In this document: one piece after another, positions 24,238 through 45,341 of the stretch
How positions within the stretch are numbered: the first letter of the stretch is position 1
Layout: each line of letters begins with the position of its first letter
Source of the DNA: Chaetoceros tenuissimus
Taxonomy: Eukaryota > Bacillariophyta > Thalassiosirophyceae > Chaetocerotales > Chaetocerotaceae
NCBI GenBank assembly: GCA_021927905.1
Contig: BLLK01000038.1
Coordinates: 1,922,001 to 1,986,000, forward strand
DNA length: 64,000 bases
Direction: 5' to 3'
The notes under the pieces: generated by a model
What the model was told of the DNA's origin: nothing
The model's database searches: none
Seen by the model: only the letters and a program-made list of their open reading frames with translations
Made by a program: the position numbers and the translations under genes

Positions 24238-24455
24238 ATTAACCGTTATATTACAGTCGTTGACTCTGTTTGATCACAAAATGATCCTATCCAAATATCC
24301 GTTTGTAATGGAAATATCTAATTCCTGTCAGTCGCTTCAGTCGCCGACCAGCGCACTAGAAACGACGAACAACAGCAGCGTCGAACACACTACTTTTATA
24401 CTTTGCAAACTATTTATTCCAAGATAGCTCTGTATTATAACAAGAAAACAGCAAG

Positions 24456-25847
24456 ATGGAACACACCAGCAATACTACCAACTTTAACTTCACAAAGCCG
24501 GCAATTATTATACCTACGGTCTCCGGCTCGATATCATTCATTTCTTCGATGTTGATTATATATGTCATCCTCAAGTCACCTAAACTAGTTTTTTCCACAC
24601 CGTACCACCGCATCATGTTCGGTATGAGCATAGGTGACTGCTCCATGTCACTTGCAATAGCTTTGACAACGATTCCGATGCCGAAAGATGTGATATATCC
24701 ATTTGCACAGAGTTCCTATGGAAACATTCGTACATGCAATGCACAGGCATATGCATTTATAGACGGATGCGGAATTGCACTGGGAATGAGCATGGTTTTG
24801 TACATGTATTACGGCTGTTCATTAGTATTTCATATGCAAGACGTTACATTCCGTAAATGGATTGAAACACCTTTGGTTGCCTTTTTCGTGTTTCTTACAA
24901 TTGTTCCTCTATTCTATCTTGATAGAGAGAACATGAATCCTAGTCCAACAAGCGTTTGGTGCACAAGAAGAGCGTATCCGGATCAATGTACAAAGGACAC
25001 AGATCCTGATTGTAGAGGAGGAAAAGTTTGGTTTCATGAGAACTTTTCCGTAGTTTGGATGCCACTAACGCTAGCAACCTTTGCAGTTCTGATTGTTGAT
25101 ATGTGCCTCATTGTCTTCTCCTTCTATCGGGCGGAGCAGAAGTTGAAAGCTCTAAAGGAAGAACTCTATTTATCTACCTTGGATAATACTGCTGTGGTTG
25201 ACAGAGATGAATTTAAAGACGATCAATTAATGGAGACTAGACAGGACAAAAGAAGAATCACAAAGGAAGCCTTGATGTATATTGCTTCATTTTTTGTGAT
25301 TTGGACGTTACCAGTTGCTTTTGGTTCATTATCTGATAGAAATGATGGCTACAAGGATATTCCAGTACTCGCTGCATTACGTCTTTTCTTTCAACCATTG
25401 CAAGGATTCTTGAATATGTTGATATTCTTTTATCACAAAATGGAAATCTTGAGAAGAAAAGATGAGAGTCTATCCATCAGAGAAAGGTTCAAAATGGTAG
25501 TTTTACATCCAGGGGAAGCCTTGGAAGAGAAGAAAATGGTGATTTCGAATCTTCCAATGCTTGATGTTTCTAATATACCTAACTCTGAATCCCCAAAAAA
25601 TGAAGCAGCAATAAATTCTGTAGCAAACAGGAGTTCTGCAAAAGATTCTTCACCTTCTCAAAATTTGAACTTGTATTCAGATATCGAAAGTTCTCAAGAA
25701 GCAAGCAAGGTTTCAAATAAGTTTCACTTATCACAAGGGGAAAGTCTAGCAAGTTCAGTTCCGCAAAGCAAGCTTGGATACTATGACGAAATCAGAAGAA
25801 AAATCTCTAATGGCGATTTCTCTTTTTCCAACAAAGATGAAGAGTGA
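24456..25847 (+). CDS. Seven-transmembrane receptor-like protein, copy 1
   Basis: Single exon, 463 residues, ATG start. Seven hydrophobic segments are visible (about 16-40, 53-75, 96-120, 135-152, 202-226, 268-288, 300-322), with an extracellular N-terminus bearing N-glycosylation sites (NTTNFNFT). A Cys just before TM3 (RTCNAQ) and three Cys in the loop after TM4 (WCTRRAYPDQC then DCRGGK) could form the disulphide typical of G-protein-coupled receptors. The ~140-residue cytosolic tail is Ser-rich. I do not recognise a named GPCR class; it resembles class-E/cAMP-receptor-like topology, and a related gene sits at 61739-63019. Ligand and G-protein coupling are unknown. It converges with a Sec14-like gene, 256 bp away. 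It has about twenty residue differences from copy 3. Confidence 0.75.
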   Translation: MEHTSNTTNFNFTKPAIIIPTVSGSISFISSMLIIYVILKSPKLVFSTPYHRIMFGMSIGDCSMSLAIALTTIPMPKDVIYPFAQSSYGNIRTCNAQAYAFIDGCGIALGMSMVLYMYYGCSLVFHMQDVTFRKWIETPLVAFFVFLTIVPLFYLDRENMNPSPTSVWCTRRAYPDQCTKDTDPDCRGGKVWFHENFSVVWMPLTLATFAVLIVDMCLIVFSFYRAEQKLKALKEELYLSTLDNTAVVDRDEFKDDQLMETRQDKRRITKEALMYIASFFVIWTLPVAFGSLSDRNDGYKDIPVLAALRLFFQPLQGFLNMLIFFYHKMEILRRKDESLSIRERFKMVVLHPGEALEEKKMVISNLPMLDVSNIPNSESPKNEAAINSVANRSSAKDSSPSQNLNLYSDIESSQEASKVSNKFHLSQGESLASSVPQSKLGYYDEIRRKISNGDFSFSNKDEE

Positions 25848-26103
25848 CAAGATCCGAGTTTTAGCTTGCATAGTGTTAGATGAGACTTTTAACGATGATA
25901 TTAGTTAGACATGGGGAATAGGTACAAGTTCAACTTAAAATATGGAGAAAGTCTAACAAGTTCATCTCAGCAAAACGAAGTTCGATTCTACGATGAAATC
26001 AGATGGGTGTCTATCTCTGAAAGTATTTCACATTAGCTCCATTTTTTCCTTCTAACGCAACATAAATCTAAACGAAAAGAAGCAAGCAGTCGCCACACAA
26101 ACA

Positions 26104-27189
26104 TCAACAACTGTTAGATTCTTGATTGAATATAGTAGCAAGATCATCCACACGATGCGGCCAATGTTCATCGTTTCCCCCAAAACAAACTGGCAAATTA
26201 TCTACTTTAACAAACTTTTCAAAATATTTCTTTCTTTCCTTTTCTGTAATCACCTTGCCAAACAAATTAGTTTTTTCCACCACTCGTTTTGGAAACAATT
26301 TCTTCAAAATGTTCCATACTCTCTGCATGAAATTGGGACAATTGACAACATATACCGCACCTGCAAGCTGAGGATAATAATCCTGTGACAATCTACTAGC
26401 CTTTGCATCCTTTTTCATATAGTTCAACTTTAATCCTTTCAAACTCATATCTTGCAAATCAATGATTTTCAAAACTTTTGTCAATCGATTTGTTCGTCTT
26501 GTGATTTCATCTTGAATTTGAAATATCGTTTCATTACAGTACAGATAGGAATCTTGTAACTCTTGCAAATGCAATGTTTCGTAAATCCCCTTGAGATTCA
26601 ATTCGTTGACTTTGACATAGGACATGACTCCTCGATTACGATCGGGTAATGTATGCATTATCGTGTAGTTGGAGGCACAGTATGTATTATAGGCTAATAC
26701 AGAAGGGAATTGATTTTCTTGTATCTTTGTATCGTTTCGAAGACTTGGTGTACGATGCCGTATATCACCCAAGTCATTCAATCCCTTTGCATGTCGAAAT
26801 TGTATCGTTTTCTGTGCGGCCTTGGCGGCATTTGCAATTGCGCGGTGTGAGAGAATGTAACGTAGGATCCAAATGTTGTCATATCTCGGATTGGGTGATT
26901 GACAGTCTTGGACGAAAAGAGGTTCGTTGTTGGTTAGATTTTCATGTACTGTGTCGATTTCGACTTGGTGTTGAAGTAGCAAATCTGTGATGTAAGGTCT
27001 ATCATCATTTGGATCTGTTATGCTTTCATTGTTTTGATTTTGACGAGGGGAAGAACTCGAGGTTTGTTTTGATTTCATTTTTGTATAGAAGGCTTCTGTT
27101 ACGAACGCAAGTGTAATGGGCTCGATCTGAGAAAATGATCGAGGATTCATAAGTATAGTATATATATTGTTATGATAGAGCACAAGCAC
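26104..27189 (-). CDS. Sec14/CRAL-TRIO lipid-transfer-like protein, copy 1
   Basis: Single exon. The preferred ATG is residue 37 of the open frame (27081), which gives 325 residues beginning MKSKQTSSSS and matches copy 3; the frame itself extends to 27189. After a ~90-residue polar and helical N-domain comes a CRAL-TRIO domain: DRNRGVMSYVKVNEL, LKIIDLQDMSLKGL (the central strand-helix), YYPQLAGAVYVVNCPNFMQRVW (the YPErLxxxxIxNaPxxF motif) and LPVCFGGND (the LPxxxGG end). Sec14-type proteins bind phosphoinositides or other lipids and transfer them between membranes. Its gene always lies tail-to-tail with a 7TM gene here. Ligand unknown. Confidence 0.75.
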   Translation of the reverse strand: MLVLYHNNIYTILMNPRSFSQIEPITLAFVTEAFYTKMKSKQTSSSSPRQNQNNESITDPNDDRPYITDLLLQHQVEIDTVHENLTNNEPLFVQDCQSPNPRYDNIWILRYILSHRAIANAAKAAQKTIQFRHAKGLNDLGDIRHRTPSLRNDTKIQENQFPSVLAYNTYCASNYTIMHTLPDRNRGVMSYVKVNELNLKGIYETLHLQELQDSYLYCNETIFQIQDEITRRTNRLTKVLKIIDLQDMSLKGLKLNYMKKDAKASRLSQDYYPQLAGAVYVVNCPNFMQRVWNILKKLFPKRVVEKTNLFGKVITEKERKKYFEKFVKVDNLPVCFGGNDEHWPHRVDDLATIFNQESNSC

Positions 27190-27309
27190 ACATCTAAAAA
27201 AAGAAGGGTACCTAAAAGGACAATGACGCTACGTTTCTCTATTTAATTTGTCCGTGTCAAAAATTAAAAAGCTCAATTGACTCTTAGTATAAGGATAAAT
27301 TGGCCCTCA

Positions 27310-27617
27310 TTCATTTCATTGTCTATCTTTCATTCGGTTCTGATGATCGGATAGGTGTTGTGTTTGTCTGAAGGATGTGTGATAAGAAGGACAGCTGAAT
27401 GCCGATGAAAAGAACACAAGAGAAGATGGAAGGAACATATACCTCTGAACTACTTTGAGTTTAATAGAATGAAAAGTAGCAATCGTATTTGGTGCAACAA
27501 GTCGATATTCTTCTTTGAATAGGACTCCCTGCCTCTATTGGCTTGACAGCAGAACTTGCAGGGCTGCATGCTGCATGCACGCATGCCAAAAAATGAATGG
27601 CGCCAAGTTTCTCGATT
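27310..27617 (-). pseudogene. Duplicated 5' fragment of the 2H phosphoesterase gene, copy A
   Basis: Matches the region around 19260-19560, which holds the start of the 2H phosphoesterase gene and its upstream DNA, with scattered substitutions and small indels. The catalytic domain is absent. It is a non-coding fragment carried inside duplicated unit 1. Confidence 0.7.
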
Positions 27618-28098
27618 TTTCTTGGACGACAAACCAACGGACATGTCAAAAACTAAAATGCCGTATTGACTTTCCGTAAATGAAAATGAAAATTAGACAT
27701 CACTTTTTTGCAAAAATCATTTTTTCATTTTTGCGCTTCTTTTGAATTAGTTTGAGATGAATAAAAGCTCCAGAAATCTTTTCAGTTGAATTGTGCCTGT
27801 GCATAGAAAGGCCAAAAATGATACATACCTACCACACATTTGTAATTGAAATATCTAATTCCTGTCAGTCGCTTCAGTCGCCAAAAGAGATTAGTTCCAT
27901 CTGTTCTCAAACAATGTGTTGCCGATGGCAGGCCAGACCACATCACTAGAAACGGCAAACAGTAGCGTCCAACATACAATACTACTATTACTAGCAAACT
28001 CTTTATTTCAAGATAGCTCTAAATTTGAAACACTCACGCGTACGTTGCTATAGTAAAGATGGAACACACCAGCAATACTAGTACCAACTTTAACAAAG
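27618..28098. promoter_or_regulatory. Upstream region of 7TM copy 2
   Basis: Nearly identical to 38361-38801 before copy 4. No gene seen. Contains an upstream out-of-frame ATG at 28059 created by a short duplication of the gene start, listed as a finding. Confidence 0.5.
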
Positions 28099-29490
28099 AT
28101 GGAACACACCAGCAATACTACCAACTTTAACTTCACAAAGCTGGCAATTATTATACCTACGGTCTCCGGCTCGATATCATTCAATTCTTCGATGCTGATT
28201 ATATATGTCATCCTCAAGTCACCTAAACTAGTGTTTTCCACACCTTACCACCGCATCATGTTCGGTATGAGCATAGGTGACTGCTTCATGTCACTTGCAA
28301 TAGCTTTGACAACGATTCCGATGCCGAAAGATGTGATATATCCGTTCGCACAGTCTTCCTATGGAAACATTCGTACATGCAATGCACAAGCATATGCATT
28401 TATAGACGGATGCGGAATTGCACTGGGAATGAGCATGGTTTTGTACATGTATTACGGCTGTTCATTAGTATTTCATATGCAAGACGTTACATTCCGTAAA
28501 TGGATTGAAACACCTTTGGTTGCCTTTTTCGTGTTTCTTACAATTGCGCCTCTATTCTATCTTGATAGAGAGAACATGAATCCTAGTCCAACAAGCGTTT
28601 GGTGCACAAGAAGAGCATATCCGGATCAATGTACAAAGGACACAGATCTTGATTGTAGAGAAGGAAAAGTTTGGTTTCATGAGAACTTTTCCGTAGTTTG
28701 GATGACACTAACGCTAGGAACCTTTGCAGTTCTGATTGTTGATATGTGCCTCATTGTCTTCTCCTTCTACCGTGAGGAGCGGAAGCTGAAAGCTATGAAG
28801 GAAGAACTCTATTTATCTACCTTGGATAATACTGCTGTGGTTGACAGAGATGAATTTACGGACGATCAATTAATGGAGACTAGACAGGACAAAAGAAGAG
28901 TCACAAAGGAAGCCTTAATGTACATTGCTTCATTTTTTGCTATTTGGACGTTACCAGTTGCTTTTGGTTCATTATCTGATAGAAATGATGGCTACAAGGA
29001 TATTCCAGTACTCGCTGCATTACGTCTTTTCTTTCAACCATTGCAAGGATTCTTGAATATGTTGATATTCTTTTATCACAAAATGGAAATCTTGAAAAGA
29101 AAAGATGAGAGTCTATCCATCAGAGAAAGGTTCAAAATGGTAGTTTTACAACCAGGGGAAGCATTGGAAGAGAAGAAAATGGTAATTTCAAATCTTCCAA
29201 TGATCAACGTTTCTAATATACCTAACTCTGAATCCCCAAAAAATGAAGCAGCAATAAATTCTGTAGCAAACAGGAGTTCTGCAAAAGATTCTTCACCTTC
29301 TCAAAATTTGAACTTGTATTCAGATATCGAAAGTTCTCAAGAAGCAAGCAAGGTTTCAAATAAGTTTCACTTATCACAAGGGGAAAGTCTAGCAAGTTCA
29401 GTTCCGCAAAGCAAGCTTGGATTCTACAATGAAATCAGAAGACAAATCTCTAATGGCAATTTCTCTTTTTCCAACAAAGATGAAGAGTGA
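28099..29490 (+). CDS. Seven-transmembrane receptor-like protein, copy 2
   Basis: Single exon, 463 residues. It has the same seven membrane segments, N-glycosylation sites and extracellular cysteine pattern as copy 1 and differs at about two dozen residues (for example TIAPL for TIVPL in TM4 and REERKLKAM in loop 3). A 40-bp duplication of the start region places an extra ATG at 28059, whose frame is different from the gene and stops at 28130, overlapping the true start. The ATG at 28099 is chosen because it keeps the conserved N-terminus. Downstream, only a short remnant of the partner Sec14 gene remains, unlike copies 1 and 3. Confidence 0.75.
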   Translation: MEHTSNTTNFNFTKLAIIIPTVSGSISFNSSMLIIYVILKSPKLVFSTPYHRIMFGMSIGDCFMSLAIALTTIPMPKDVIYPFAQSSYGNIRTCNAQAYAFIDGCGIALGMSMVLYMYYGCSLVFHMQDVTFRKWIETPLVAFFVFLTIAPLFYLDRENMNPSPTSVWCTRRAYPDQCTKDTDLDCREGKVWFHENFSVVWMTLTLGTFAVLIVDMCLIVFSFYREERKLKAMKEELYLSTLDNTAVVDRDEFTDDQLMETRQDKRRVTKEALMYIASFFAIWTLPVAFGSLSDRNDGYKDIPVLAALRLFFQPLQGFLNMLIFFYHKMEILKRKDESLSIRERFKMVVLQPGEALEEKKMVISNLPMINVSNIPNSESPKNEAAINSVANRSSAKDSSPSQNLNLYSDIESSQEASKVSNKFHLSQGESLASSVPQSKLGFYNEIRRQISNGNFSFSNKDEE

Positions 29491-29749
29491 CAAGATCCGA
29501 GTTTTAGCTTACATAGTGTTAGATGAGACTTCTAACGATGATCTTTGTTAGACATGGGGAATAGGTTCAAGTTCAACTTAAATTATGGGGAAAAGTCTAA
29601 CAAGTTTATCTCAGCAAAACAAAGTTCGATTCTACGATGAAATCAGATGGGTGTCTATCTCTGAAAGTATTTCACATTAGCTCCATTTTTTCCTTCTAAC
29701 GCAACATAAATCTAAACGAAAAGAAGCAAGCAGTCCCCACACAAACATC

Positions 29750-29834
29750 AACTACAGTTAGATTCTTGATTGAATATAGTAGCAAGATCATCCACATGAT
29801 GCGGCCAATGTTCATCACTCCCTCCAAAACAAAC
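29750..29834 (-). pseudogene. Remnant of the 3' end of a Sec14-like gene, copy A
   Basis: About 85 bp match the 3' end of the intact Sec14-like gene around 26100-26185, then identity stops at a sharp boundary (after CAAAACAAAC) and unrelated sequence follows. It encodes only the last ~25 residues. The same truncation point recurs at 41834, so it predates duplication of the unit. Confidence 0.75.
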
Positions 29835-29889
29835 GTGAAATAAAAAGTCTTCCATTTTTTTACTTTTTACTTTCTTTTAGGAATTATTG

Positions 29890-32493
29890 TTACATACATG
29901 TAAAAGCTGAAATCACCTTTGTTGCAGAGTCATTAATTTTCTCCAACATTGTCTCATCTTTCTTCTTTTTCAATACTGGAGTGAGTGCATTTTGGAATTT
30001 GTCTCTCATTGTGTTGTCATTTTTCTTTGCTGGTGTGGATATAGATGCCATGACCTTGCTGGTGGCGTCGCTTACGATACCTGTAATTGAGTCATTACTT
30101 TTTTCCAACATTGTCTCATCTTTCTTCTTTTTCAATACTGGAGTGAGTGCATTTTGGAATTTGTCTCTCATTGTGTTGTCATTTTTCTTTGCTGGTGTGG
30201 ATATAGATGCCATGACCTTGCTGGTGGCGTCGCTTACGATACCTGTAATTGTGTCATCCTTTTTTTTTCTCAGTGGAGTAAGTGCGTATCCTAACTTGCT
30301 CAACTTTGTTTCGGAAGGATTGGTTGCAGTAATTTGAGTATTTGGCGCAAAATATGATACAGTAGTTTTGATACTAGTTACAGTATCTGGCGTACCACAT
30401 TTAACTTTCTCTGACTCCATGGATTCCTCAACAACTTTATTCACATATCTAGACAAATAAAAGCATCCTATCGGCCCAATTATGCAAATCAGAATAATGA
30501 AAGAAGTGATGACTTTGTCCAGTGTATTGAATGCATTCTCCTTCATGTCTGGGATGCTTGCAATAAAAAGAGAAATGAGACAAAAATTAGTCAAGGCTCC
30601 CCAAATTATCACTTCTCTCAATGCAATCGCCTTCAATGCTGCTATCTTGTTTTGAGTAATCTCTTCATTGACAAATAGCAATGACTTCGCATCACCCTCT
30701 TCTTCGGAGATGTTCACGTCATTTGGAGGACTTTCATACTTTCCATCATGCACGTAAAATGGATCAGCAAGTTTTACAAGTGATATTCCAAAGTTTGCAA
30801 TGAAGAACTTGATAACCAAACTTGCAAATATGCCAGAAGATATCCAAAGTTGCCACCAAGAGAGTCCAGTATCATCAGCAACCATTATCTTTTTCTGTGC
30901 GTAGAGTCTATCAACACAAATGGTCTCGTTGCCTAGAAATGCAAAGTCTTCTTTTGCTTTCCACAAAGAGGACTGATCTGCTTTTTGGTTCTCAGTAGAT
31001 ATAGCGATCCCATCCAGAGTTTTATATGGCATCGTATTGATTTTCCAATCCTTTTCAAATCCATAATTATGAATTGTCAAGTTTGAATAATCTTGTGAAT
31101 TGGCTGGAAATGGACAAGTACATGTCACATCAAACTGTGTGATATCTTCAATTAGTTGAGAAATTTCAAACTTTGCCACACCCAATTTATTTTCAATATT
31201 GATCAGATTGTTGCAGGTATTGCTGACAATCTCAGATCGACCTCTGATAAAATCTGCGTCTAGGAAGCATGGATCAGATCTAATGTTTCCAAGAAATATA
31301 TTAATCTCTGGCTGGTTCAATATCATTGTTGCATAATCAGATACCCAGTAAATAACGAGTACAGTGATGATGAAAGTAAACTTTCTCACCCCAAACAACA
31401 GAGTTTTCATTGTATTAACAATGGAGGGTCTATACAGGACCATTGGTGTTGGGAAGAAGAGTGCGACGACCATGTATATTGAATACATTGTTCCGGCTAC
31501 ATCAAATTGCTTCATGAGTCTTTGGATCATTTCTGCCGATTCTTGCTTCAAGTGGTCCAGGTTGTCAACACTTGCATCGCTTTCAAAAGCTACCTCATCG
31601 GCTTGCAAGTCTTTGTCGATCTTACCTTGCCACGACGGAGAACATGGTGTAGGAATTGTTTTTCTTTTACAAATAATGCTGAGTCCCCAATTATCCCAAC
31701 GAATTTTTTTCCTTACAGAGCAGCCTTTTTCCCGTTTTTTCTGTAGCAAAGCTCGCCAATATCCAGGGAAAAATCTTTCACCATACCATGTAACAACTTC
31801 CTCGTTTTGAGAGTATTTTACCTTGGTGTTAATGTTGTTACCTCCTTTAATTTTTTCATTGTTTGGCTCTTCAGGACACCTTATATAACGCGCAGTATCT
31901 CTCAATAGTTGGTCTCTATATGTAGGAGTCGCGTTATATTGGTCTCTTCCTTGGTCAATGTTTGTGACATCAGAACTTTTGATGTGAAGTTGGAATAGGG
32001 CAAGTTTTTCCTCAGCATCATCTGTCGCACAAAAGCCACCTTCGCCACCAGTAGCAACGGCAAGCTTGTTTGTGAGACTGTTCTCACTCAGAAGAAAGGT
32101 AATAGCCAAGATAGTAATTGCTGTGCTCCAAATGCCAATTTTGAATGGAATAGGCTTCCAACCTGGGAACCTCTTGTCTACACAAGGAGCCATTCTATGA
32201 CGTCCAAGCATGACAGCATATAAAACCTCCATCAATGTTCCTTTCTTCTTTTCAGTTTCAGACATATTTTCTTCCTTTCGGGCTTGGTGAAAACCTCTAC
32301 CAAAACCCTTGAAACCTGCGACCAAGGGATTTGTGCTGAACTTTTTACTAAAGGCATTGAAAAACGTATTTTCATTTTGGAATGATCTATCGTCAACAAC
32401 GCTCCGAAGTTTTCTAATGAATAGATAGTTCGAAAGAGAAAGAACATCTACCATGAAAAGAAGGGCAATACTTGTCAATGATCTTGTCGCCAT
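29890..32493 (-). CDS. Large multi-pass membrane protein, copy 1
   Basis: Single exon, 867 residues; I do not recognise a family. About seven hydrophobic segments are visible: near the N-terminus (ALLFMVDVLSLSNYLF), ~120-137, ~340-360, ~372-392, ~555-577, ~640-660 and ~678-697. Between segments 2 and 3 and between 4 and 5 lie large cysteine-containing domains with N-x-S/T sites (likely outside the cell or in the lumen). The C-terminus has two near-identical 54-residue repeats (DSITGIVSDATSKVMASIS...) corresponding to a 162-bp tandem repeat in DNA, rich in Lys, Thr and Ser. Copy 2 at 41890 is nearly identical. Channel, transporter or receptor are all possible; the sequence gives no clear motif. 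Confidence 0.7.
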   Translation of the reverse strand: MATRSLTSIALLFMVDVLSLSNYLFIRKLRSVVDDRSFQNENTFFNAFSKKFSTNPLVAGFKGFGRGFHQARKEENMSETEKKKGTLMEVLYAVMLGRHRMAPCVDKRFPGWKPIPFKIGIWSTAITILAITFLLSENSLTNKLAVATGGEGGFCATDDAEEKLALFQLHIKSSDVTNIDQGRDQYNATPTYRDQLLRDTARYIRCPEEPNNEKIKGGNNINTKVKYSQNEEVVTWYGERFFPGYWRALLQKKREKGCSVRKKIRWDNWGLSIICKRKTIPTPCSPSWQGKIDKDLQADEVAFESDASVDNLDHLKQESAEMIQRLMKQFDVAGTMYSIYMVVALFFPTPMVLYRPSIVNTMKTLLFGVRKFTFIITVLVIYWVSDYATMILNQPEINIFLGNIRSDPCFLDADFIRGRSEIVSNTCNNLINIENKLGVAKFEISQLIEDITQFDVTCTCPFPANSQDYSNLTIHNYGFEKDWKINTMPYKTLDGIAISTENQKADQSSLWKAKEDFAFLGNETICVDRLYAQKKIMVADDTGLSWWQLWISSGIFASLVIKFFIANFGISLVKLADPFYVHDGKYESPPNDVNISEEEGDAKSLLFVNEEITQNKIAALKAIALREVIIWGALTNFCLISLFIASIPDMKENAFNTLDKVITSFIILICIIGPIGCFYLSRYVNKVVEESMESEKVKCGTPDTVTSIKTTVSYFAPNTQITATNPSETKLSKLGYALTPLRKKKDDTITGIVSDATSKVMASISTPAKKNDNTMRDKFQNALTPVLKKKKDETMLEKSNDSITGIVSDATSKVMASISTPAKKNDNTMRDKFQNALTPVLKKKKDETMLEKINDSATKVISAFTCM
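29935..30258 (-). repeat. 162-bp tandem repeat, two copies, within the membrane protein gene
   Basis: Units begin at 29935 and 30097 (162 bp apart), differ at a few positions and preserve the reading frame (54 residues each). A further partial unit lies upstream. The same pair occurs at 41935-42258. Confidence 0.8.
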
Positions 32494-36478: not shown

Positions 36479-36734
36479 CAAGATCCGAGTTTTAGCTTAC
36501 ATAGTGTTAGATGAGACTTTTAAGGATGATATTAGTTAGACATGGGGAATAGGTACAAGTTCAACTTAAAATATGGAGAAAGTCTAACAAGTTCATCTCA
36601 GCAAAACGAAGTTCGATTCTACGATGAAATCAGATGGGTGTCTATCTCTGAAAGTATTTCACATTAGCTCCATTTTTTCCTTCTAACGCAACATAAATCT
36701 AAACGAAAAGAAGCAAGCAGTCGCCACACAAACA

Positions 36735-37703
36735 TCAACAACTGTTAGATTCTTTACAAAATATAGTAGCAAGATCATCCACATGATGCGGCCAATGTTC
36801 ATCACTCCCCCCAAAACAAACTGGCAAATTATCTACTTTAACAAACTTTTCAAAATATTTCTTTCTTTCCTTTTCTGTAATCACCTTGCCAAACAAATTA
36901 GTTTTTTCCACCACTCGTTTTGGAAACAATTTCTTCAAAATGTTCCATACTCTCTGCATGAAATTGGGACAATTGACAAGATAAACCGCACCTACAAGTT
37001 GAGGATAATAATCTTGTGACAATCTACTAGCTTTTGCATCTTTTTTCATATAATTCAACTTTAGTCCTTTCAAACTCATATCTTGCAAATCAATGATTTT
37101 CAATACTTTTGTCAATCGATTTGTTCGTCTTGTGATTTCATCTTGGATTTGAAATATCGTTTCATTACAGTACAGATAAGAATCTTGTAATGTTTCCAAA
37201 GGCAATGTTTCGTATATCCCCTTGAGATTCAATTCGTTGACTTTGACATAGGACATGACTCCTCGATTAGGATCGGGTAATGTATGCATTATCGTGTAGT
37301 TGGAGGCAAAGTATGCATTATAGGCTAATACAGAAGGGAATTGATTTTCTTGTATCTTTGTATCCTTTCGGAGACTTGGTGCACGATGCCGTATATCGCC
37401 CAATTCGTTTAATCTCTTTGTATGTCGAAATTGTATCGTTTTCTGAGCAGCCTTGGACGCATTTGCAATTGTACGGTGTGAGAGAATGTAACGTAGGATC
37501 CAAATGTTGTCATATCTCGGATTGGGTGATTGAGAGTCTTGGACGAAAAGAGGTTCGTTGTTGGTTAGAATTTCATGCACTGTGTCGATTTCGACTTGGT
37601 GTTGAAGTAGCAAATCTGTGATGTAAGGTCTATCATCATTTGGATCTGTTATGCTTTCATTGTTTTGATTCTGAAGGGCATTCGAGGTTTGTTTTGATTT
37701 CAT
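36735..37703 (-). CDS. Sec14/CRAL-TRIO lipid-transfer-like protein, copy 3
   Basis: Single exon, 322 residues, ATG start. The CRAL-TRIO motifs match the copy at 26104-27189: DPNRGVMSYVKVNEL, LKIIDLQDMSLKGL, QDYYPQLVGAVYLVNCPNF and LPVCFGGSD. It differs by about twenty residues, mostly conservative, which argues that both copies are under selection as proteins. Convergent with 7TM copy 3, 256 bp away, as in unit 1. Confidence 0.75.
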   Translation of the reverse strand: MKSKQTSNALQNQNNESITDPNDDRPYITDLLLQHQVEIDTVHEILTNNEPLFVQDSQSPNPRYDNIWILRYILSHRTIANASKAAQKTIQFRHTKRLNELGDIRHRAPSLRKDTKIQENQFPSVLAYNAYFASNYTIMHTLPDPNRGVMSYVKVNELNLKGIYETLPLETLQDSYLYCNETIFQIQDEITRRTNRLTKVLKIIDLQDMSLKGLKLNYMKKDAKASRLSQDYYPQLVGAVYLVNCPNFMQRVWNILKKLFPKRVVEKTNLFGKVITEKERKKYFEKFVKVDNLPVCFGGSDEHWPHHVDDLATIFCKESNSC

Positions 37704-37920
37704 TTTTGTATAGAAGGCTTCTGTTACGAACGCAAGTGTAATGGGCTCGATCAGAGAAAATGATCCAAGGATTCATAAGTATATAGTATATTGTTATGAT
37801 AGAGCACAAGCACACATCTAAAAAAAGAAGGGTACCTAAAAGGACAATGACGCTACGTTTCTCTATTTGTCCGTGTCAAAAATTAAAAAGCTCAATTGAC
37901 TCTTAGTATAAGGATAAATT

Positions 37921-38360
37921 GGCTGGAGGTCTTTTGATGACGAGAGATTCTTCTTTACTGAATGTACTGATTGTTGAATAGAGGGTGTGACGAGTGCGCT
38001 CTTTCTCTTTTTGGGAAACAAGACTGTGGCTGTATTTGCAACATTCATTTCATTGTCCATAGCTGTCATTCTGTTCTGATGATCGGATAGGTGTTGTGTT
38101 TGTCTGAAGGATGTCGTGTGATAAGAAGGACTGCTGAATGCCGATGAAAAGAACACAAGAGAAGATGGAAGGAACATATACCTCTGAACTACTTTGAGTT
38201 TAATAGAATGAAAAGTAGCAATCGTATTTGGTGCAAAAAGTCGATAAGTTTTCTTCTTCTTCTTTTTGAATAGGTCTCCCTCTATTGGCTTGACAGCAGA
38301 ACTTGCAGGGCTGCATGCTGCATGCACGCATTCCAAAAAATGAATGGCGCAAGTTTCTCG
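37921..38360 (-). pseudogene. Duplicated 5' fragment of the 2H phosphoesterase gene, copy B
   Basis: Longer than copy A: it matches about 19131-19560, covering the upstream DNA and first ~80 codons of the 2H phosphoesterase gene, with a frame change near the Lys-rich segment. The catalytic domain is missing. A minus-strand open frame of 175 codons through it is therefore a relic. Confidence 0.7.
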
Positions 38361-38801
38361 ATTTTTCTTGGACGACAACCCAACGGACATGTCAAAAACT
38401 AAAATGCCGTATTGACTTTCCGTAAATGATTAAATGAAAATTAGACATCACTTTTTTGCAAAAATCATTTTGTCATTTTTGCGCTTCTTTTGAATTAGTT
38501 TGAGATGAATAAAAGCTCCAGAAATCTTTTCAGTTGAATTATGCCTGTGCATAGAAAGGCCGAAAATGATACATACCACACATTTGTAATTGAAATATCT
38601 AATTCCTGTCAGTCGCTTCAGTCGCCGAAAGAGATTAGTTCCATTTGTTCTCGAACAATGTGTTGCCGTGGCAGGCCAGACCACATCACAAGAAACGGCG
38701 AACAGTAGCGTCGAACATACAATACTACTATTACTGGCAAACTCTTTATTTCAAGATAGCTCTAAATTTGAAACACTCACGCGTACGTCGCTATAATAAA
38801 G
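38361..38801. promoter_or_regulatory. Upstream region of 7TM copy 4
   Basis: Nearly identical to the region before copy 2, but lacking the duplicated start that creates an upstream ATG there. No gene seen. Confidence 0.5.
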
Positions 38802-40226
38802 ATGGAACACACCAGCAATACTACCAACTTTAACTTCACAAAGCCGGCAATTATTATACCTACGGTCTCCGGCTCGATATCATTCATTTCTTCGATGTTG
38901 ATTATATATGTCATCCTCAAGTCACCTAAACTAGTTTTTTCCACACCGTACCACCGCATCATGTTCGGTATGAGCATAGGTGACTGCTTCATGTCACTTG
39001 CAATAGCTTTGACAACGATTCCGATGCCGAAAGATGTGATATATCCGTTCGCACAGAGTTCCTATGGAAACATTCGTACATGCAATGCACAGGCATATGC
39101 ATTTATAGACGGATGCGGAATTGCACTGGGAATGAGCATGGTTTTGTACATGTATTACGGCAGCTCATTAGTATTTCATATGCAAGACGTTACATTCCGT
39201 AAATGGATTGAAACACCAATGGTTGCCTTTTACACGTTTCTTACAATTTTGCCTCTATTCTATCTTGATAGAGAGAACATGAATCCTAGTCCAACAAGCG
39301 TTTGGTGCACAAGAAGAGCGTATCCGGATCAATGTACAAAGGACACAGATCCTGATTGTAGAGAAGGAAAAGTTTGGTTTCTTGAGAACTTTTCTGTAGT
39401 TTGGAGGACACTAACGCTAGCAACCTTTGCAGTTCTGATTGTTGATATGTGCCTCATTGTCTTCTCCTTCTACCGTGAGGAGCGGAAGCTGAAAGCTATG
39501 ATGGAAGAACTCTACTTATCTACCTTGGATAATACTGCTGTGGTTGACAGAGATGAATTTACGGACGATCAATTAATGGAGACTAGACAGGACAAAAGAA
39601 GAGTCACAAAGGAAGCCTTGATGTATATTGCTTCATTTTTTGCTATTTGGACGTTCGCAGTTGCTTTTGGTTCATTATCTGATAGAAATGATGGCTACAA
39701 GGATATTCCAGTACTCGCTGCATTACGTCTTTTCTTTCAGCCATTGCAAGGGTTTCTGAATATGTTGATATTCTTTTATCACAAAATGGAAATTTTGAGA
39801 AGAAAAGATGAGAGTCTATCCATCAGAGAAAGGTTCAAAATGGTAGTTTTACATCCAGGGGAAGCATTGGAAGAGAAGAAAATGGTGATTTCGAATCTTC
39901 CAATGCTTGATGTTTCTATCGTACGCCCTGAGTCTCCAAAGAAAAATGAAGCAGGAATGAACTCTGTGGTAAACAGGAGTTCTGCAAAAGATTCTTTTCC
40001 TTCTCAAAATTTGAACTTATATTCAGATATCGAAAGTTCTCAAGAAGCAAGCAAGGTTTCAAATACGAGTAAGTTTCACTTATCACAAGGGGAAAGTCTA
40101 GCAAGTTCACTTCCGCAAAACGAGGTTGGAGTCTACGATGAAATCAGAAGAAAAGTCTTTACTGGCGATTTTTTTTCCAACAAAGGTGAACAAGATCCGA
40201 GTTTTAGCTTGCATATTGTTAGATGA
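38802..40226 (+). CDS. Seven-transmembrane receptor-like protein, copy 4
   Basis: Single exon, 474 residues. Core identical in architecture to copies 1-3, with local changes in TM3/TM4 (YYGSS for YYGCS; MVAFYTFLTILPLF). The cytosolic tail is the most divergent of the four: SIVRPESPKKNEAGMNSV, KVFTGDFFSNKGEQ, and the stop codon is lost at the position used by the others, so the protein runs on 11 residues. Its 3' end overlaps the end of a truncated Sec14-like gene by 8 bp. Confidence 0.75.
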   Translation: MEHTSNTTNFNFTKPAIIIPTVSGSISFISSMLIIYVILKSPKLVFSTPYHRIMFGMSIGDCFMSLAIALTTIPMPKDVIYPFAQSSYGNIRTCNAQAYAFIDGCGIALGMSMVLYMYYGSSLVFHMQDVTFRKWIETPMVAFYTFLTILPLFYLDRENMNPSPTSVWCTRRAYPDQCTKDTDPDCREGKVWFLENFSVVWRTLTLATFAVLIVDMCLIVFSFYREERKLKAMMEELYLSTLDNTAVVDRDEFTDDQLMETRQDKRRVTKEALMYIASFFAIWTFAVAFGSLSDRNDGYKDIPVLAALRLFFQPLQGFLNMLIFFYHKMEILRRKDESLSIRERFKMVVLHPGEALEEKKMVISNLPMLDVSIVRPESPKKNEAGMNSVVNRSSAKDSFPSQNLNLYSDIESSQEASKVSNTSKFHLSQGESLASSLPQNEVGVYDEIRRKVFTGDFFSNKGEQDPSFSLHIVR

Positions 40227-40890
40227 GTATTTTAAGGATGATCCTAGTTAGACATGGGGAATAGGTACAACTTAAAATATGGGGAAAAGTCTTCAATCGA
40301 TTTGTTCGTCTTGTGATTTCATCTTGGATTTGAAATATCGTTTCATTACAGTACAGATAGGAATCTTGTAATGTTTCCAAAGGCAATGTTTCGTATATTC
40401 CCTTGAGATTCAATTCGTTGACTTTGACATAGGACATGACTCCTCGATTAGGATCGGGTAATGTATGCATTATCGTATAGTTGGAGGCACAGCAGTATGC
40501 ATTATAGGCTAATACAGAAGGGAATTGATTTTGTTGGATCTTTGTATCCTTTCGGAGACTTGGTACACGATGCCGTACATCACCGTATTCATTCAATCTC
40601 TTTGTATGTCGAAATTGTATCGTTTTCTGAGCAGCCTTGGACGCATTTGCAATTGTACGGTGTGAGAGAATGTAACGTAGGATCCAAATGTTGTCATATC
40701 TCGGATTGGGCGATTGAGAGTCTTGGACGAAAAGAGGTTCGTTGTTGGTTAGAATTTCATGTACTGTGTCGATTTCGACTTGGTGTTGAAGTAGCAAATC
40801 TGTGATGTAAGGTCTATCATCATGTGGATCTTCTGTTATGCTTTCATTGTTTTGATTTTGAAGGGCATTCGAGGTTTGTTTTGATTTCAT
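40219..40890 (-). pseudogene. Sec14-like gene, copy 4, truncated
   Basis: 223 residues, ATG start. The N-terminal part matches the intact copies, through ITRRTNRL. Then an internal deletion joins it to sequence complementary to the 7TM copy 4 3' region, adding a short unrelated tail. The lipid-binding C-terminal half (YPQL...NCPNF, LPVCFGG) is missing, so it is very unlikely to be functional. Confidence 0.75.
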
Positions 40891-41226
40891 TTTTGTATAG
40901 AAGGCTTCTGTTACGAACGCAAGTGTAATGGGCTCGATCTGAGAAAATGATCCAAGGATTCATAAGTATATAGTATATGGTTATGATAGCACATCTAAAA
41001 AAAAGAAGGGTACCTTAAAAGGACAATGACGCTACGTTTCTCTATTGAATTTGTCCGCGTCAAAAATTAAAAATCTCAATTGACTCTTAGTATAAGGATA
41101 AATTGGCCCTCATTTAATTTTTGCTTGCAGGCAAAAATGAACAGAAAGATTGAAGAGATGAAGAGATAAGAGCACAGAGAGAACAGAGAGAAAACACAGC
41201 GATGAGGAAACGAGAGAAGAGAAACC

Positions 41227-41299
41227 AAACCAAAAACTAGCAATGAATGTCGGAGGAGAAATCATCAAGCTATCCTTTGGACCGGCATCGAATGCCATC
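41227..41299 (+). pseudogene. 73-bp scrap of the misato/DML1 gene
   Basis: Matches 46542-46614 with one mismatch, covering the start codon region and first ~17 codons of the misato gene. It ends with GCCATC and continues directly into the 3' part of a 7TM gene. Confidence 0.8.
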
Positions 41300-41490
41300 T
41301 CAAAATTTGAACTTATATTCAGATATCGAAAGTTCTCAAGAAGCAAGCAAGGTTTCTAATAAGTTTCACTTATCACAAGGGGAAAAGTCTAGCAAGTTCA
41401 CTTCCGCAAACCGAGGTTGGATTCTACGATGAAATCAGAAGACAAATCTTTAATGGTGATTTCTATTTTTCCAACAAAGATGAAGAGTGA
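41298..41490 (+). pseudogene. 3' fragment of a fifth 7TM receptor gene
   Basis: Matches the last ~60 codons of the 7TM genes plus the downstream DNA. One extra A in the GGGGAAA run shifts the frame. All membrane segments are missing. Confidence 0.8.
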
Positions 41491-41749
41491 CAAGATCCGA
41501 GTTTTAGCTTGCATAGTGTTAGATGAGACTTCTAACGATGATCTTAGTTAGACATGGGGAATAGGTACAAGTTCAACTTAAAATATGGAGAAAAGTCTAA
41601 CAAATTTATCTCAGCAAAACGAAGTTCAATTCTACGATGAAATCAGAGGGATGTCTATCTCTGAAAGTATTTCACATTAGCTCCATTTTTTCCTTCTAAC
41701 GCAACATAAATCTAAACGAAAAGAAGCAAGCAGTCCCCACACAAACATC

Positions 41750-41834
41750 AACAACTTTTAGATTCTTGATTGAATATAGTAGCAAGATCATCCACACGAT
41801 GCGGCCAATGTTCATCATTCCCCCCAAAACAAAC
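41750..41834 (-). pseudogene. Remnant of the 3' end of a Sec14-like gene, copy B
   Basis: Same fragment and same truncation point as at 29750-29834 in unit 1. Confidence 0.75.
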
Positions 41835-41889
41835 GTGAAATAAAAAGTCTTCCAATTTTTTACTTTTTACTTTCTTTTAGGAATTATTG

Positions 41890-44475
41890 TTACATACATG
41901 TAAAAGCTGAAATCACCTTTGTTGCGGAGTCATTAATTTTCTCCAACATTGTCTCATCTTTCTTCTTTTTCAATACTGGAGTGAGTGCATTTTGGAATTT
42001 GTCTTTCATTGTGTTGGCATTTTTCTTTGCTGGTGTGGATATAGATGCCATGACCTTGCTGGTGGCGTCGCTTACGATACCTGTAATTGAGTCATTAATT
42101 TTCTCCAACATTGTCTCATCTTTCTTCTTTTTCAATACTGGAGTGAGTGCATTTTGGAATTTGTCTCTCATTGTGTTGTCATTTTTCTTTGCTGGTGTGG
42201 ATATAGATGCCATGACCTTGCTGGTGGCGTCGCTTACGATACCTGTAATTGTGTCATCCTTTTTTTTTCTCAGTGGAGTAAGTGCGTATCCTAACTTGCT
42301 CAACTTTGTTTCGGAAGGATTGGTTGCAGTAATTTGAGTATTTGGCGCAAAATATGATACAGTAGTTTTGATACTAGTTACAGTATCTGGCGTACCACAT
42401 TTAACTTTCTCTGACTCCATGGATTCCTCAACAACTTTATTCACATATCTAGACAAATAAAAGCATCCTATCGGCCCAATTATGCAAATCAGAATAATGA
42501 AAGAAGTGATGACTTTGTCGAGTGTATTGAATGCATTCTCCTTCATGTCTGGGATGCTTGCAATAAAAAGAGAAATGAGACAAAAATTAGTCAAGGCTCC
42601 CCAAATTATCACTTCTCTCAATGCAATCGCCTTCAATGCTGCTATCTTGTTTTGGGAAATCGCTTCATTTACGAAGAGAAACGACTTAGCATCGCCCTCT
42701 TCTTCGGAGATGTTCACGTCATTTGGAGGACTTTCATACTTTCCATCATGCACGTAAAATGGATCAGCAAGTTTTACAAGTGATATTCCAAAGTTTGCAA
42801 TGAAGAACTTGATAACCAAACTTGCAAATATGCCAGAAGATATCCAAATTTGCCACCAAGAGAGTCCAGTATCATCAGCAACCATTATCTTTTTCTGTGC
42901 GTAGAGTCTATCAACACAAATGGTCTCGTTGCCTAGAAATGCAAAGTCTTCTTTTGCTTTCCACAAAGAGGACTTAACTGCTTTTTGCTCAGCACCCGTA
43001 GTGACATATGGCTTCGTACGGATATCCCAATCCTTTTCAAATCCATAATTATGAATTGTCAAGTTTGAATAATCTTGTGAATTGGCTGGAAATGGACAAT
43101 CGCATTTCTTATCAAACTGTGTGATATCTTCAATCAGTTGAGAAATTTCAAACTTTGCCACACCCAATTTATTTTCAATATTGATCAGATCGTTGCAGGT
43201 ATTGCTGACAATCTCAGATCGACCTCTGATAAAATCTGCGTCTAGGAAGCATGGATCAGATCTAATGTTTCCAAGAAATATATTAATCTCTGGCTGGTTC
43301 AATATCATTGTTGCATAATCAGATACCCAGTAAATAACGAGTACAGTGATGATGAAAGTAAACTTTCTCACCCCAAACAACAGAGTTTTCATTGTATTAA
43401 CAATGGAGGGTCTATACAGGACCATTGGTGTTGGGAAGAAGAGTGCGACGACCATGTATATTGAATACATTGTTCCGGCTACATCAAATTGCTTCATGAG
43501 TCTTTGGATCATTTCTGCCGATTCTTGCTTCAAATGGTCCAGGTTGTCAACACTTGCATCGCTTTCAAAAGCTACCTCATCAGCTTGCAAGTCTTCGTCG
43601 ATCTTACCTTGCCACGACGGAGAACATGGTGTAGGAATTGTTTTTCTTTTACAAATAATGCTGAGTCCCCAACTATCCCAACAAATTTTTTTCCTTACGG
43701 AGCAGCCTTTTTCCCGTTTTTTCTGTAGCAAAGCTCGCCAATATCCAGGGAAAAATCTTTCACCATACCGTGTAACAACTTCCTCGTTTTTAGAGTATTT
43801 TACCTTGGTGTTAATGTTGTTACCTCCTTTAATTTTTTCATTGTTTGGCTCTTCAGGACAATCTATATAACGCGCAGTATCTCTCAATAGTTGGTCTCTA
43901 TATGTACGAGTCGCGTTATATTGGTCTCTTCCTTGGTCAATGTTTGTGACATTAGAACTTTTGATGTGAAGTTGGAATAGGGCAAGTTTTTGATCTGCAT
44001 CTTCCGTGGCACAAAAGCCACCTTCGCCACCAGTAGCAACGGCAAGCTTGTTTGTGAGACTGTTCTCACTGAGAAGAAAGGTAATAGCCAAGATAGTAAT
44101 TGCTGTGCTCCAAATGCCAATTTTGAATGGAATAGGCTTCCAACCTGGGAACCTCTTGTCTACACTAGGAGCCATTCTATGACGTCCAAGCATGACAGCA
44201 TATAAAACCTCCATCGACGTTCCTTTCTTCTTTTCAGTTTCAGACATATTTTCTTCCTTTCGGGCTTGGTGAAAACCTCTACCAAAACCCTTGAAACCCG
44301 CGACCAAGGGATTTGTGCTGAACTTTTTACTAAAGGCATTGAAAAACGTATTTTCATTTTGGAATGATCTATCGTCAACAACGCTCCGAAGTTTTCTAAT
44401 GAATAGATAGTTCGAAAGAGAAAGAACATCTACCATGAAAAGAAGGGCAATACTTGTCAATGATCTTGTCGCCAT
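41890..44475 (-). CDS. Large multi-pass membrane protein, copy 2
   Basis: Single exon, 861 residues; nearly identical to the 867-residue copy at 29890-32493. The main differences lie in the extracellular or lumenal region after TM4, where copy 2 reads DWDIRTKPYVTTGAEQKA and is six residues shorter, and the Cys pair reads KKCDCPF versus VTCTCPF. It keeps the same seven hydrophobic segments and the two 54-residue C-terminal repeats. Conservation of frame in both copies suggests that both are intact genes. Function unknown. Confidence 0.7.
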   Translation of the reverse strand: MATRSLTSIALLFMVDVLSLSNYLFIRKLRSVVDDRSFQNENTFFNAFSKKFSTNPLVAGFKGFGRGFHQARKEENMSETEKKKGTSMEVLYAVMLGRHRMAPSVDKRFPGWKPIPFKIGIWSTAITILAITFLLSENSLTNKLAVATGGEGGFCATEDADQKLALFQLHIKSSNVTNIDQGRDQYNATRTYRDQLLRDTARYIDCPEEPNNEKIKGGNNINTKVKYSKNEEVVTRYGERFFPGYWRALLQKKREKGCSVRKKICWDSWGLSIICKRKTIPTPCSPSWQGKIDEDLQADEVAFESDASVDNLDHLKQESAEMIQRLMKQFDVAGTMYSIYMVVALFFPTPMVLYRPSIVNTMKTLLFGVRKFTFIITVLVIYWVSDYATMILNQPEINIFLGNIRSDPCFLDADFIRGRSEIVSNTCNDLINIENKLGVAKFEISQLIEDITQFDKKCDCPFPANSQDYSNLTIHNYGFEKDWDIRTKPYVTTGAEQKAVKSSLWKAKEDFAFLGNETICVDRLYAQKKIMVADDTGLSWWQIWISSGIFASLVIKFFIANFGISLVKLADPFYVHDGKYESPPNDVNISEEEGDAKSFLFVNEAISQNKIAALKAIALREVIIWGALTNFCLISLFIASIPDMKENAFNTLDKVITSFIILICIIGPIGCFYLSRYVNKVVEESMESEKVKCGTPDTVTSIKTTVSYFAPNTQITATNPSETKLSKLGYALTPLRKKKDDTITGIVSDATSKVMASISTPAKKNDNTMRDKFQNALTPVLKKKKDETMLEKINDSITGIVSDATSKVMASISTPAKKNANTMKDKFQNALTPVLKKKKDETMLEKINDSATKVISAFTCM

Positions 44476-44804
44476 GGTTGTATGGTCGTTTCCAGATCAA
44501 TATTTGCTTCTTGTGATAGTAATGCAGGATGAGTGATTTCTGTTAACTTTGAAGCGGCACTGTTTACTTATATGAAGAAGTTCTGGAAATAGTAGGAGTA
44601 TCCAGATCCAAGACTAAATTAAAATATCCGAAGTTTTATCCGATCCAAGACTGAAAAAATAAAAGAATACATACACAAGACTTCAAGTGGTGCACATTAA
44701 ATAGGGTCGATCTACTCCTAACAGGCCGGCTCGAAACATTGTCAGTTCAATCCAAACACATTTCGGCAAACAACTCAAAAATTAGAATAGATGTTAAAAA
44801 GAAC

Positions 44805-45341
44805 ATGATGAAATCTTTGAAGTCATTTGCCAAGAAATGGTATTCGAGGATACTAGTAAAATTCTCTTCAACCAATGAAGGAAAACTCGCAGAGGCAGCT
44901 CAAGTTGCCCCTCCACGAACCAAAGCCATCATATGCCATAGATCTGTTCTGTACTGGATTTATAAAGCTGGACTTATCACTAAACAAAAATTCAACCAGA
45001 TTCAACAAAGCACGCGCGCTGATCAATGGAGTACAGTTCTTGCAAACAATACTTATACACCGGTTCTAAATTTTCCTCAAGGGCTTGCCAACGTACCCCG
45101 TGGTGCCATCATTGGATTTATTGATCCATCGATGCTGCAGCATAGCATGGTAGTAGTTGGTCATGATAATGGAGAAGCCTATGTTGCTGGTGTGAACAAT
45201 GTGAATGTTCTTACCGAGAATGATGCTTTCAGGGTTGGCATCAAACATGCTGTGGTTACTGCCAATCAATTTAAACCTCTCAACCCACATACGCAAGTCT
45301 ATTGGGTCGATGTTGACACTGTCGTTGCAAGGCTTCCTTAG
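44805..45341 (+). CDS. Small basic protein, possible papain/NlpC-fold cysteine peptidase
   Basis: ATG at 44805 gives 178 residues (a TTG extends the frame to 44739). The N-terminus is basic and amphipathic (MMKSLKSFAKKWYSRIL), possibly mitochondrial targeting or membrane binding. The body contains AIICHRSVLYWIYKAGL, then PRGAIIGFID, then QHSMVVVGHDNGEAYVAGVNN. A Cys in a helix followed by a His at the start of a beta-strand is how NlpC/P60 and other papain-fold peptidases look, and such genes are common in bacteria. I could not assign a named family. The unit 1 copy has been truncated by a transposon, so only this one is intact. Confidence 0.45.
   Translation: MMKSLKSFAKKWYSRILVKFSSTNEGKLAEAAQVAPPRTKAIICHRSVLYWIYKAGLITKQKFNQIQQSTRADQWSTVLANNTYTPVLNFPQGLANVPRGAIIGFIDPSMLQHSMVVVGHDNGEAYVAGVNNVNVLTENDAFRVGIKHAVVTANQFKPLNPHTQVYWVDVDTVVARLP

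Follow-up and report, generated by a model that had tools for sequence, protein, structure and literature searches.

A probable transposon-bounded tandem duplication within a large seven-transmembrane receptor family of the diatom Chaetoceros tenuissimus

How do near-identical receptor genes come to stand side by side in a diatom genome, and does their likeness indicate that they are young? The question is raised by a 64-kb stretch of the Chaetoceros tenuissimus genome (C27:1922001-1986000, hereafter the window; 38.5% G+C), in which four open genes for seven-transmembrane (7TM) receptors, a1, b1, a2 and b2, are distributed over two neighboring units. The genome sequence that was searched comprises 41,027,912 bases on 68 contigs; passages of the genome paper describe strain NIES-3715 with 41.0 Mbp, 38.9% G+C and 85 scaffolds (PMC8613185). 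We propose that the window probably holds a real tandem duplication, bounded by a transposon, of conversion-prone 7TM receptor genes, and that the duplicated block already contained a doubled module of a 7TM and a Sec14-like gene.

A preliminary description of this DNA had announced a tandem segmental duplication with units of about 8.7 and 10 kb, and self-alignment of the window by BLAST bears this out in the assembly, with unit lengths of 8.68 and 10.03 kb. The units are direct repeats and match segment by segment at 91.6-96.6% identity (24231-27304 with 34865-37923 at 96.0%, 27308-29598 with 38042-40292 at 91.6%, and 29296-32911 with 41295-44896 at 96.6%). Each of them contains a forward 7TM gene, a reverse Sec14-like gene, a fragment of a 2H-like open reading frame (ORF), a second forward 7TM gene, a Sec14 remnant and a reverse gene for a large membrane protein. 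The gene order claimed for both units is thus found, but they are not colinear throughout: unit 2 has an extra 3' fragment of 7TM and Sec14 sequence as well as a longer Sec14 remnant, and a small gene is whole only after unit 2. Inside each unit an older doubling of the 7TM-Sec14 module is present. The left flank of unit 1 aligns at 24092-24185 with the flank of b1 and at 24213-24285 with the flank of a paralogue on contig C16 (P1). Because it is continuous with the flanks of other 7TM genes we read it as ancestral; the left flank of unit 2 is interrupted by the transposon at the seam. At a break inside unit 2, a 76-bp stretch (41227-41302) is a 97% copy of 46542-46617, which lies 5 kb downstream near the start of a Misato-like ORF, and it resembles the templated filler left where a break has been repaired.

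The 1.96 kb between the units are a MULE-type transposon, which went unmentioned in the earlier account of the array. With its ends set by eye, the element lies directly between the end of unit 1 and the first base certainly assigned to unit 2, whereas the arms reported by the repeat finder alone place it at 32917-34865 and thereby open a gap of five bases on the side of unit 1. Its terminal inverted repeats consist of 47-nt arms that are 96% complementary according to the repeat finder, or of 60 bp at 90% according to self-BLAST, and its transposase ORF is probably truncated. In unit 1 the transposon cuts the small gene after 92 bp. This is the only full-length copy of the element found in the genome. 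Two elements just under 1 kb (L068, 1021-2004, and L069, 986-1941), 96% alike over 984 bp, carry the same ends, which read GATACACATTAAAC from outward to inward, and look non-autonomous. MULE transposons produce a target-site duplication of about 9 bp. None adjoins the ends of the seam element, where the only match is one of 7 bp located more than 20 bp inside the left flank; since both short elements likewise lack such a duplication, its absence at the seam decides nothing. Within the stretch 34865-35094, the first 21 bases of unit 2 beside the transposon show four differences from unit 1, one of them within the presumed transposon end, and the 209 bases that follow show none.

The near-identity of the four 7TM genes had been taken to mean that the array is recent. 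The 5' flanks indeed group a1 with a2 at 23 of 23 informative two-two sites, whereas in the coding region and the bases immediately after it this grouping holds at 7 of 28 sites, against 11 for a1 with b2 and 10 for a1 with b1. The contrast is significant (Fisher p 1e-8) and persists when sites are thinned to a spacing of at least 10 bp (2e-4) or 15 bp (0.003). The coding regions of the four genes do not share the history of their flank. The 5' flanks of type a share 80-89% identity with those of type b; for 200-bp blocks of the coding region the figure is 88-99%. Over the same pair of units, the synonymous divergence (dS) ranges from 0.044 in the large membrane protein to 0.145 in Sec14, which fits conversion, although uneven constraint or older allelic differences would give likewise. 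As coding and flank genealogies differ, near-identity is no simple sign of recency, and the claim of a recent array built on it is not supported in that form.

Paralogues elsewhere in the genome show a mosaic structure. P1 and a second paralogue (P2) differ at synonymous sites by 0-0.04 in alignment columns 305-510, the 3' part, vs. 0.20-0.48 before it. The tails of a third paralogue (P3) and of L003 differ at 0 of 65 synonymous sites, whereas the body of L003 is nearer to P2 in six of seven blocks of columns 60-345 (0.04-0.21 vs. 0.20-0.50). Between the window genes and P1, the synonymous difference drops to 0.075 at columns 60-100 from 0.39 and 0.30 alongside. The coding genealogy unlike that of the flank, together with these mosaics, argues that gene conversion is acting. 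Some statistics speak against this interpretation: the flank-coding contrast weakens to p 0.08 once sites are spaced 30 bp apart, which leaves 4 and 14 of them, and the runs test, applied to the 28 sites of the coding region (10 switches vs. 18.4; p 0.0007 before thinning), yields 0.02 at 4 bp, 0.19 at 10 bp and 0.51 at 15 bp, and 0.04-0.46 when like neighbors are collapsed. Conversion tracts inside the four window genes, considered on the basis of this runs test, have been withdrawn as unproven, given that the test rested on close-lying sites and failed after thinning. The mosaic copy L003 (C36:381000-388500) is a 7TM copy of P2 and P3 composition with an internal stop, and lies between ORFs that look retroelement-like by eye.

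Purifying selection acts over the whole gene in the four 7TM copies. The ratio of non-synonymous to synonymous divergence (dN/dS, Nei-Gojobori) is 0.28-0.47 across the six pairs and stays under 1 in every one of them (p 1.5e-6 to 0.019 by Fisher's test on rounded counts, for pairs that share sequences and are not independent); dS between a1 and a2 is 0.085. The preliminary description was therefore right in calling the four full-length copies open (463, 463, 462 and 474 codons) and under selection. Values above 1 occur on few changes, in the tail of b1-a2 (1.84) and in columns 180-220 pooled over the window pairs (1.36). When the window copies are compared with P1-P3, the ratio of the corresponding proportions (pN/pS) is 0.14-0.23 in columns 1-100, covering transmembrane helices TM1 and TM2, and 0.12-0.13 in columns 305-345 (TM7), vs. 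0.30-0.77 in columns 140-305, which comprise TM4, the second extracellular loop (ECL2) and TM5, the third intracellular loop (ICL3) and TM6. TM3 (columns 100-140) is intermediate at 0.22-0.35, and the tail is variable too; pS itself ranges over 0.08-0.68 in these column blocks.

How might the arrangement have been formed? A MULE element would once have been inserted in the 5' flank of a 7TM gene and also near the start of the small gene, on the homologous or the sister chromatid. Unequal exchange between both insertions would then produce the order unit-MULE-unit, leaving a single element at the seam. Gene conversion between copies, tandem and dispersed alike, would shuffle the coding sequences, with purifying selection keeping the frames open. 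From plant work, transposon-mediated tandem duplications with a single element at the seam are known; here, in contrast, the organism is a diatom, the element is found once at full length, and the mechanism is deduced. Exchange between two elements would be the simplest reading, which we hold less surely than the duplication itself. Three observations are unfavorable to it or to the duplication: the exchange requires that the element was inserted twice, although one full-length copy of it was found, the left end of the seam element deviates from the consensus end of the two short elements (C for G, and two extra bases), and the non-coding stretches between the units differ by 1.4, 1.8 and, for the third, 3.4%, the first two of which are near the published heterozygosity of 1.56%.

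These last values lead to the question of whether the tandem exists at all. Two diverged haplotypes with one unit each, and with the MULE at different places, could have been joined through the transposon into a false tandem. The published assembly was made from a diploid with 1.56% heterozygosity by hybrid MaSuRCA followed by merging of haplotypes in HaploMerger2, as passages of the genome paper state (PMC8613185), and the location of the seam at a transposon as well as the divergence of two of the three non-coding stretches are as such an artefact would have them. We nevertheless regard it as unlikely, because the coding divergence is higher (Sec14 and 7TM a1-a2), the third non-coding stretch exceeds heterozygosity, the units are unlike in structure with an extra module remnant in unit 2, and a three-member 7TM tandem of similar divergence exists on contig C54. 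In addition, the passages of the genome paper on its haploid sequences report no huge insertion between them (PMC8613185).

If the duplication is real, it may still have arisen by end joining or template switching, the MULE being captured or inserted at the seam without being causal. This possibility competes with the exchange step alone, so its probability overlaps with that of the duplication, and it appears somewhat unlikely to us. It would account for the missing target-site duplication next to the MULE ends, and the 76-bp copy at the break inside unit 2 looks as templated filler would. Yet two other elements with the same ends also lack such duplications, and both transposon ends, as read, meet both unit ends without filler, which renders a later chance insertion into the seam unlikely. 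Very improbable is the view that the four copies are alike solely on account of a very young duplication without gene conversion. The 91-96% identity of the 7TM-bearing segments and the failure of the runs test after thinning are compatible with it, but 21 of the 28 coding sites contradict the grouping of a1 with a2 held by all 23 flank sites, and the flanks of the two types are less alike than the coding blocks. On this flank-coding contrast, simple recency without conversion has been discarded. The transposon-bounded tandem duplication with gene conversion remains our preferred reading.

The array is part of a much larger set of genes. With one window receptor as query, 102 matches were obtained in the genome, of which ten are second pieces of the same genes; merging them gives at least 92 loci, whose best pieces each have E ≤ 2.2e-12. 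This number is a lower bound because 324 candidates appeared in a first look and 92 were scored. The earlier suggestion is supported in so far as the family is large, with at least 92 homologous loci. They are clustered, 51 of the 92 being within 50 kb and 26 within 5 kb of another. The best matched piece is free of stops in 86 loci, whereas six have a stop there and a seventh has stops in its second piece. As sequence, 70 loci were examined (60 fetched, the four window copies, five in L001-L003 and the 7TM gene at 61742-63019), the other 22 lying outside the fetched set. All 60 fetched loci contain a matching open frame; several of these frames are short or run off the fetched stretch (L032 with 301 aa, L033 with 163 aa), and L046 and L061 lack an upstream Met in place. 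In a quick tree of 69 sequences, from which L033 was left out and for which SH-aLRT is the support given, the four window genes group together (96) within a clade of nine genes (100) that includes copies from C16 and C36. Contig labels change 36 times over the 69 rows of this tree, a count that comes without a shuffled control and supports no conclusion here. A different 7TM gene is present in three copies on C54 (L064-L067, C54:30000-69999), with identities of 96.7-98.3% within the gene and of 92.6-97.7% when about 2 kb are compared; this threefold presence needs at least one real duplication. A 7TM pair on C44 is 99.5% alike. Between the C54 copies lies an ORF that resembles a retrotransposon integrase by eye. 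The window itself contains a distant family member at 61742-63019 on the reverse strand (PF00001, 26.1 bits, under the cut-off of 30.5). In viral contigs, no relatives of one 7TM protein were found.

Are the encoded proteins receptors? An AlphaFold2 model of b1, built from 59 aligned members (six close copies and 53 of the 60 fetched loci), shows seven confident helices within residues 14-335 as well as a disordered tail (pLDDT 75.7). In the PDB it is matched best by G-protein-coupled receptors (GPCRs; Foldseek E 4.0e-6), the best structural match reaching Z 22.7 over 279 residues with an rmsd of 3.2, and a PDB search with a profile built on the 59 members retrieves opsins, at E 2.8e-4 and weaker. 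No GPCR class is assigned from the structure, since Frizzled and class A receptors tie for the top matches. GPCRs have conserved cysteines where TM3 begins at its upper end and in ECL2, and the columns of Cys94 and Cys169 (b1 numbering) are invariant in the 59-sequence alignment. By its predicted fold, the family protein is a 7TM receptor, i.e., a GPCR in the broad sense of a seven-helix bundle that can be aligned to solved GPCRs.

Other observations are less favorable. The Foldseek TM-scores by query length are modest (0.37-0.50 among the matches listed), and the motifs of the class A rhodopsin family, DRY in TM3 and NPxxY in TM7, are absent, DRY being missing from all four window copies. Their TM3 ends in YYGCSLV (YYGSSLV in b2) and TM7 reads PLQGFLNMLIFF. 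PF00001 matched 3 of the 59 members at E ≤ 0.01, and the motifs do not place the family in class A; against this stands the match of the 59-member profile to opsins. Because DRY and NPxxY are lacking, G-protein coupling rests on the fold and on the genome content. The latter includes two strong G-alpha loci, at C27:812176 (374 bits) and C54:2840519-2841728 (238 and 68 bits), the better of which speaks less clearly for coupling as it has three stops in the matched stretch, possibly introns; two further candidates barely exceed the cut-off of 48.8 with pieces summed (48.9 and 49.1) and may be other GTPases. Most likely, the receptors are plasma-membrane 7TM proteins with a conserved scaffold of TM1, TM2 and TM7, an intermediate TM3, and a variable TM4-ECL2-TM5 region, ICL3, TM6 and tail, and their most likely role would be to detect a small molecule outside the cell and to pass the signal on through one of the G-alpha proteins.

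Several known receptor types were compared. Opsins carry a retinal Schiff-base lysine in TM7; no lysine occurs at residues 301-327 (300-326 in a2) of the four window copies, which excludes an opsin-type light receptor. The cAMP receptor family (PF05462, Dicty_CAR) was rejected by Pfam profile, not being among the 16 families matched by any of the 59 members at E ≤ 0.01, and a genome search with PF05462 gave one other locus (C22:131601). The C-terminal TM6-TM7 profile of fungal Gpr1/Git3-type receptors (PF11970) lies just over its cut-off of 21 in the three window copies scanned (21.2, 21.8 and 21.5 bits) and matched 8 of the 59 members at E ≤ 0.01; the other 51 differ in having no such match, and outside the TM6-TM7 part the protein has no match to it.

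Behind the stop codons in close 7TM paralogues we observed a tandem repeat of 206 bp, which encodes the C-terminal tail once more, including a stop of its own. It is present in 7.9 copies in L002 (C16:1378000-1385500) and in 2.9 and 1.9 copies in L001 (4331-4935 and 6536-6931), and as a partial second copy in a1 (window 25926-26003), b1, a2 and the remnant at 41295-41834; the repeat finder did not report it in the third gene of L001, in b2 or in L003. A role as working tail cassettes was considered and is weakened by an early stop in two of the eight L002 cassettes and a frameshift in the last. The first seven L002 cassettes have 16 variable sites, distributed 5/6/5 by codon position, with 13 changing the residue and 3 not. 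As this variation is even over the codon positions, a non-coding minisatellite is suggested.

Tandem expansion of such genes has a parallel in the diatom Seminavis robusta, for which published passages describe a tandem-expanded GPCR rhodopsin-like family and ten proteins with a benthic signature, seven of them in one tandem family (PMC7335047). Both cases concern diatom 7TM receptors expanded by tandem duplication; however, S. robusta is benthic, whereas C. tenuissimus is planktonic and has at least 92 loci in the family, with no lysine at 301-327 in the window copies and so no opsin-type light sensor; the two are likened by description. In Phaeodactylum, passages on surface colonization name five GPCR genes, overexpression of one of which shifts the dominant cell form (PMC7452957); these too are likened by description, five named genes standing against at least 92 loci here. 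For Pseudo-nitzschia, a possible role of GPCRs in mating is mentioned (PMC5485032). Together, the diatom GPCR passages of these papers name only a handful of receptors (PMC7335047, PMC7452957, PMC5485032). Since Parmales species, and not diatoms, are described as enriched in G-protein signaling domains in the relevant passages (PMC10328945), a large diatom 7TM family would be more notable. The main text of the C. tenuissimus genome paper contains neither "receptor" nor "GPCR" (PMC8613185), and none of the titles and abstract openings listed for GPCRs in diatoms and Chaetoceros, supplements not included, reported this expansion.

Little is settled about how free-living phytoplankton distinguish other cells, bacteria and mates among them. 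The family, with its 92 or more loci, supplies concrete candidates that have tandem clusters, a conserved scaffold and putatively binding, more variable regions. The transposon at the seam of this gene-array duplication also suggests how arrays of this sort may arise in diatoms. Events of each of these kinds are already known; the size of the receptor family in a diatom is the interesting part. Tentatively, one may go further and consider it possible that the loci, 90 or more, make up a recombining repertoire that has grown by transposon-bounded tandem duplication and been diversified by ectopic conversion between the clusters on C27, C16 and C36, exchanging the ligand-facing half and the C-terminal tail. 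Such a repertoire would be comparable in logic to animal chemoreceptor families.

Table 1. Coordinates of the duplication units, the seam transposon and the genes of the array (window positions).
Feature	Position	Strand	Remarks
Duplication unit 1	24231-32911		homology with unit 2 certain from ~24235; self-BLAST and boundary sequences
Duplication unit 2	34869-44896		BLAST start 34865; 34865-34868 read as transposon end
MULE-type transposon	32912-34868		ends set by eye from two other elements (L068, L069); terminal inverted repeats ~47-60 bp
Transposase ORF of seam element	32963-34153	-	396 aa; PF10551 MULE 31 bits, cut-off 27.6
7TM receptor a1	24456-25847	+	463 aa, open; PF11970 21.2 bits, cut-off 21
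7TM receptor b1	28099-29490	+	463 aa, open; AlphaFold2 model, matches to solved GPCRs
7TM receptor a2	35090-36478	+	462 aa, open; inside 96.0% segment with a1
7TM receptor b2	38802-40226	+	474 aa, open; longer C-terminal tail
Sec14-like (CRAL-TRIO) gene a1	26104-27150	-	PF00650 62.7 bits; PDB Sec14 E 2.6e-7
Sec14-like gene a2	36735-37703	-	PF00650 61.6 bits
Truncated Sec14-like copy b2	40219-40890	-	BLAST and ORF list
Sec14 remnant, unit 1	29754-29879	-	about the last 42 codons, one TAA
Remnant of further module: 7TM 3' fragment and Sec14 3' end	41295-41834		BLAST; Sec14 piece 41751-41879 with one TAA
2H-like ORF fragment (5' part), unit 1	27312-27613		82% to 19256-19555
2H-like ORF fragment (5' part), unit 2	37925-38359		84% to 19134-19555
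Large multi-pass membrane protein, unit 1	~29890-32493	-	ORF list
Large multi-pass membrane protein, unit 2	41890-44475	-	96% protein identity to unit 1 copy
Small gene, whole	44805-45341	+	first 92 bp inside unit 2, repeated at 32820-32911 in unit 1

The other genes of the array are listed in Table 1. Between Sec14 a1 and a2, dN/dS is 0.24 at the dS of 0.145, and the truncated Sec14 ORF of unit 2 overlaps the end of 7TM b2. The 2H-like fragments match, at 82-84%, the 5' part of an ORF whose intact form lies outside the array at 18548-19384. The preliminary description had called them 2H-phosphoesterase fragments. They are fragments of one ORF, which has the H-x-T/S motifs HVTA and HASL, but the 2H label is weak, with the cyclic phosphodiesterase 1fsi matched in the PDB at E = 0.023 and none of the 2H families of Pfam matched at E 0.1. 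Between the two copies of the large membrane protein, dN/dS is 0.50 at the dS of 0.044; neither Pfam (at E 0.1) nor the PDB (up to E 1) yields a match for it, and one distant relative was found in the genome (C34:1134717-1136904). The small gene reaches at best 16.6 bits in Pfam, under the cut-off of 25, and E 0.16 in the PDB. To the left of the array, the reverse-strand ORF at 23087-23647 encodes a RusA-type Holliday junction resolvase domain (PF05866, E 2e-17); the gene is phage-like, the contig eukaryotic.

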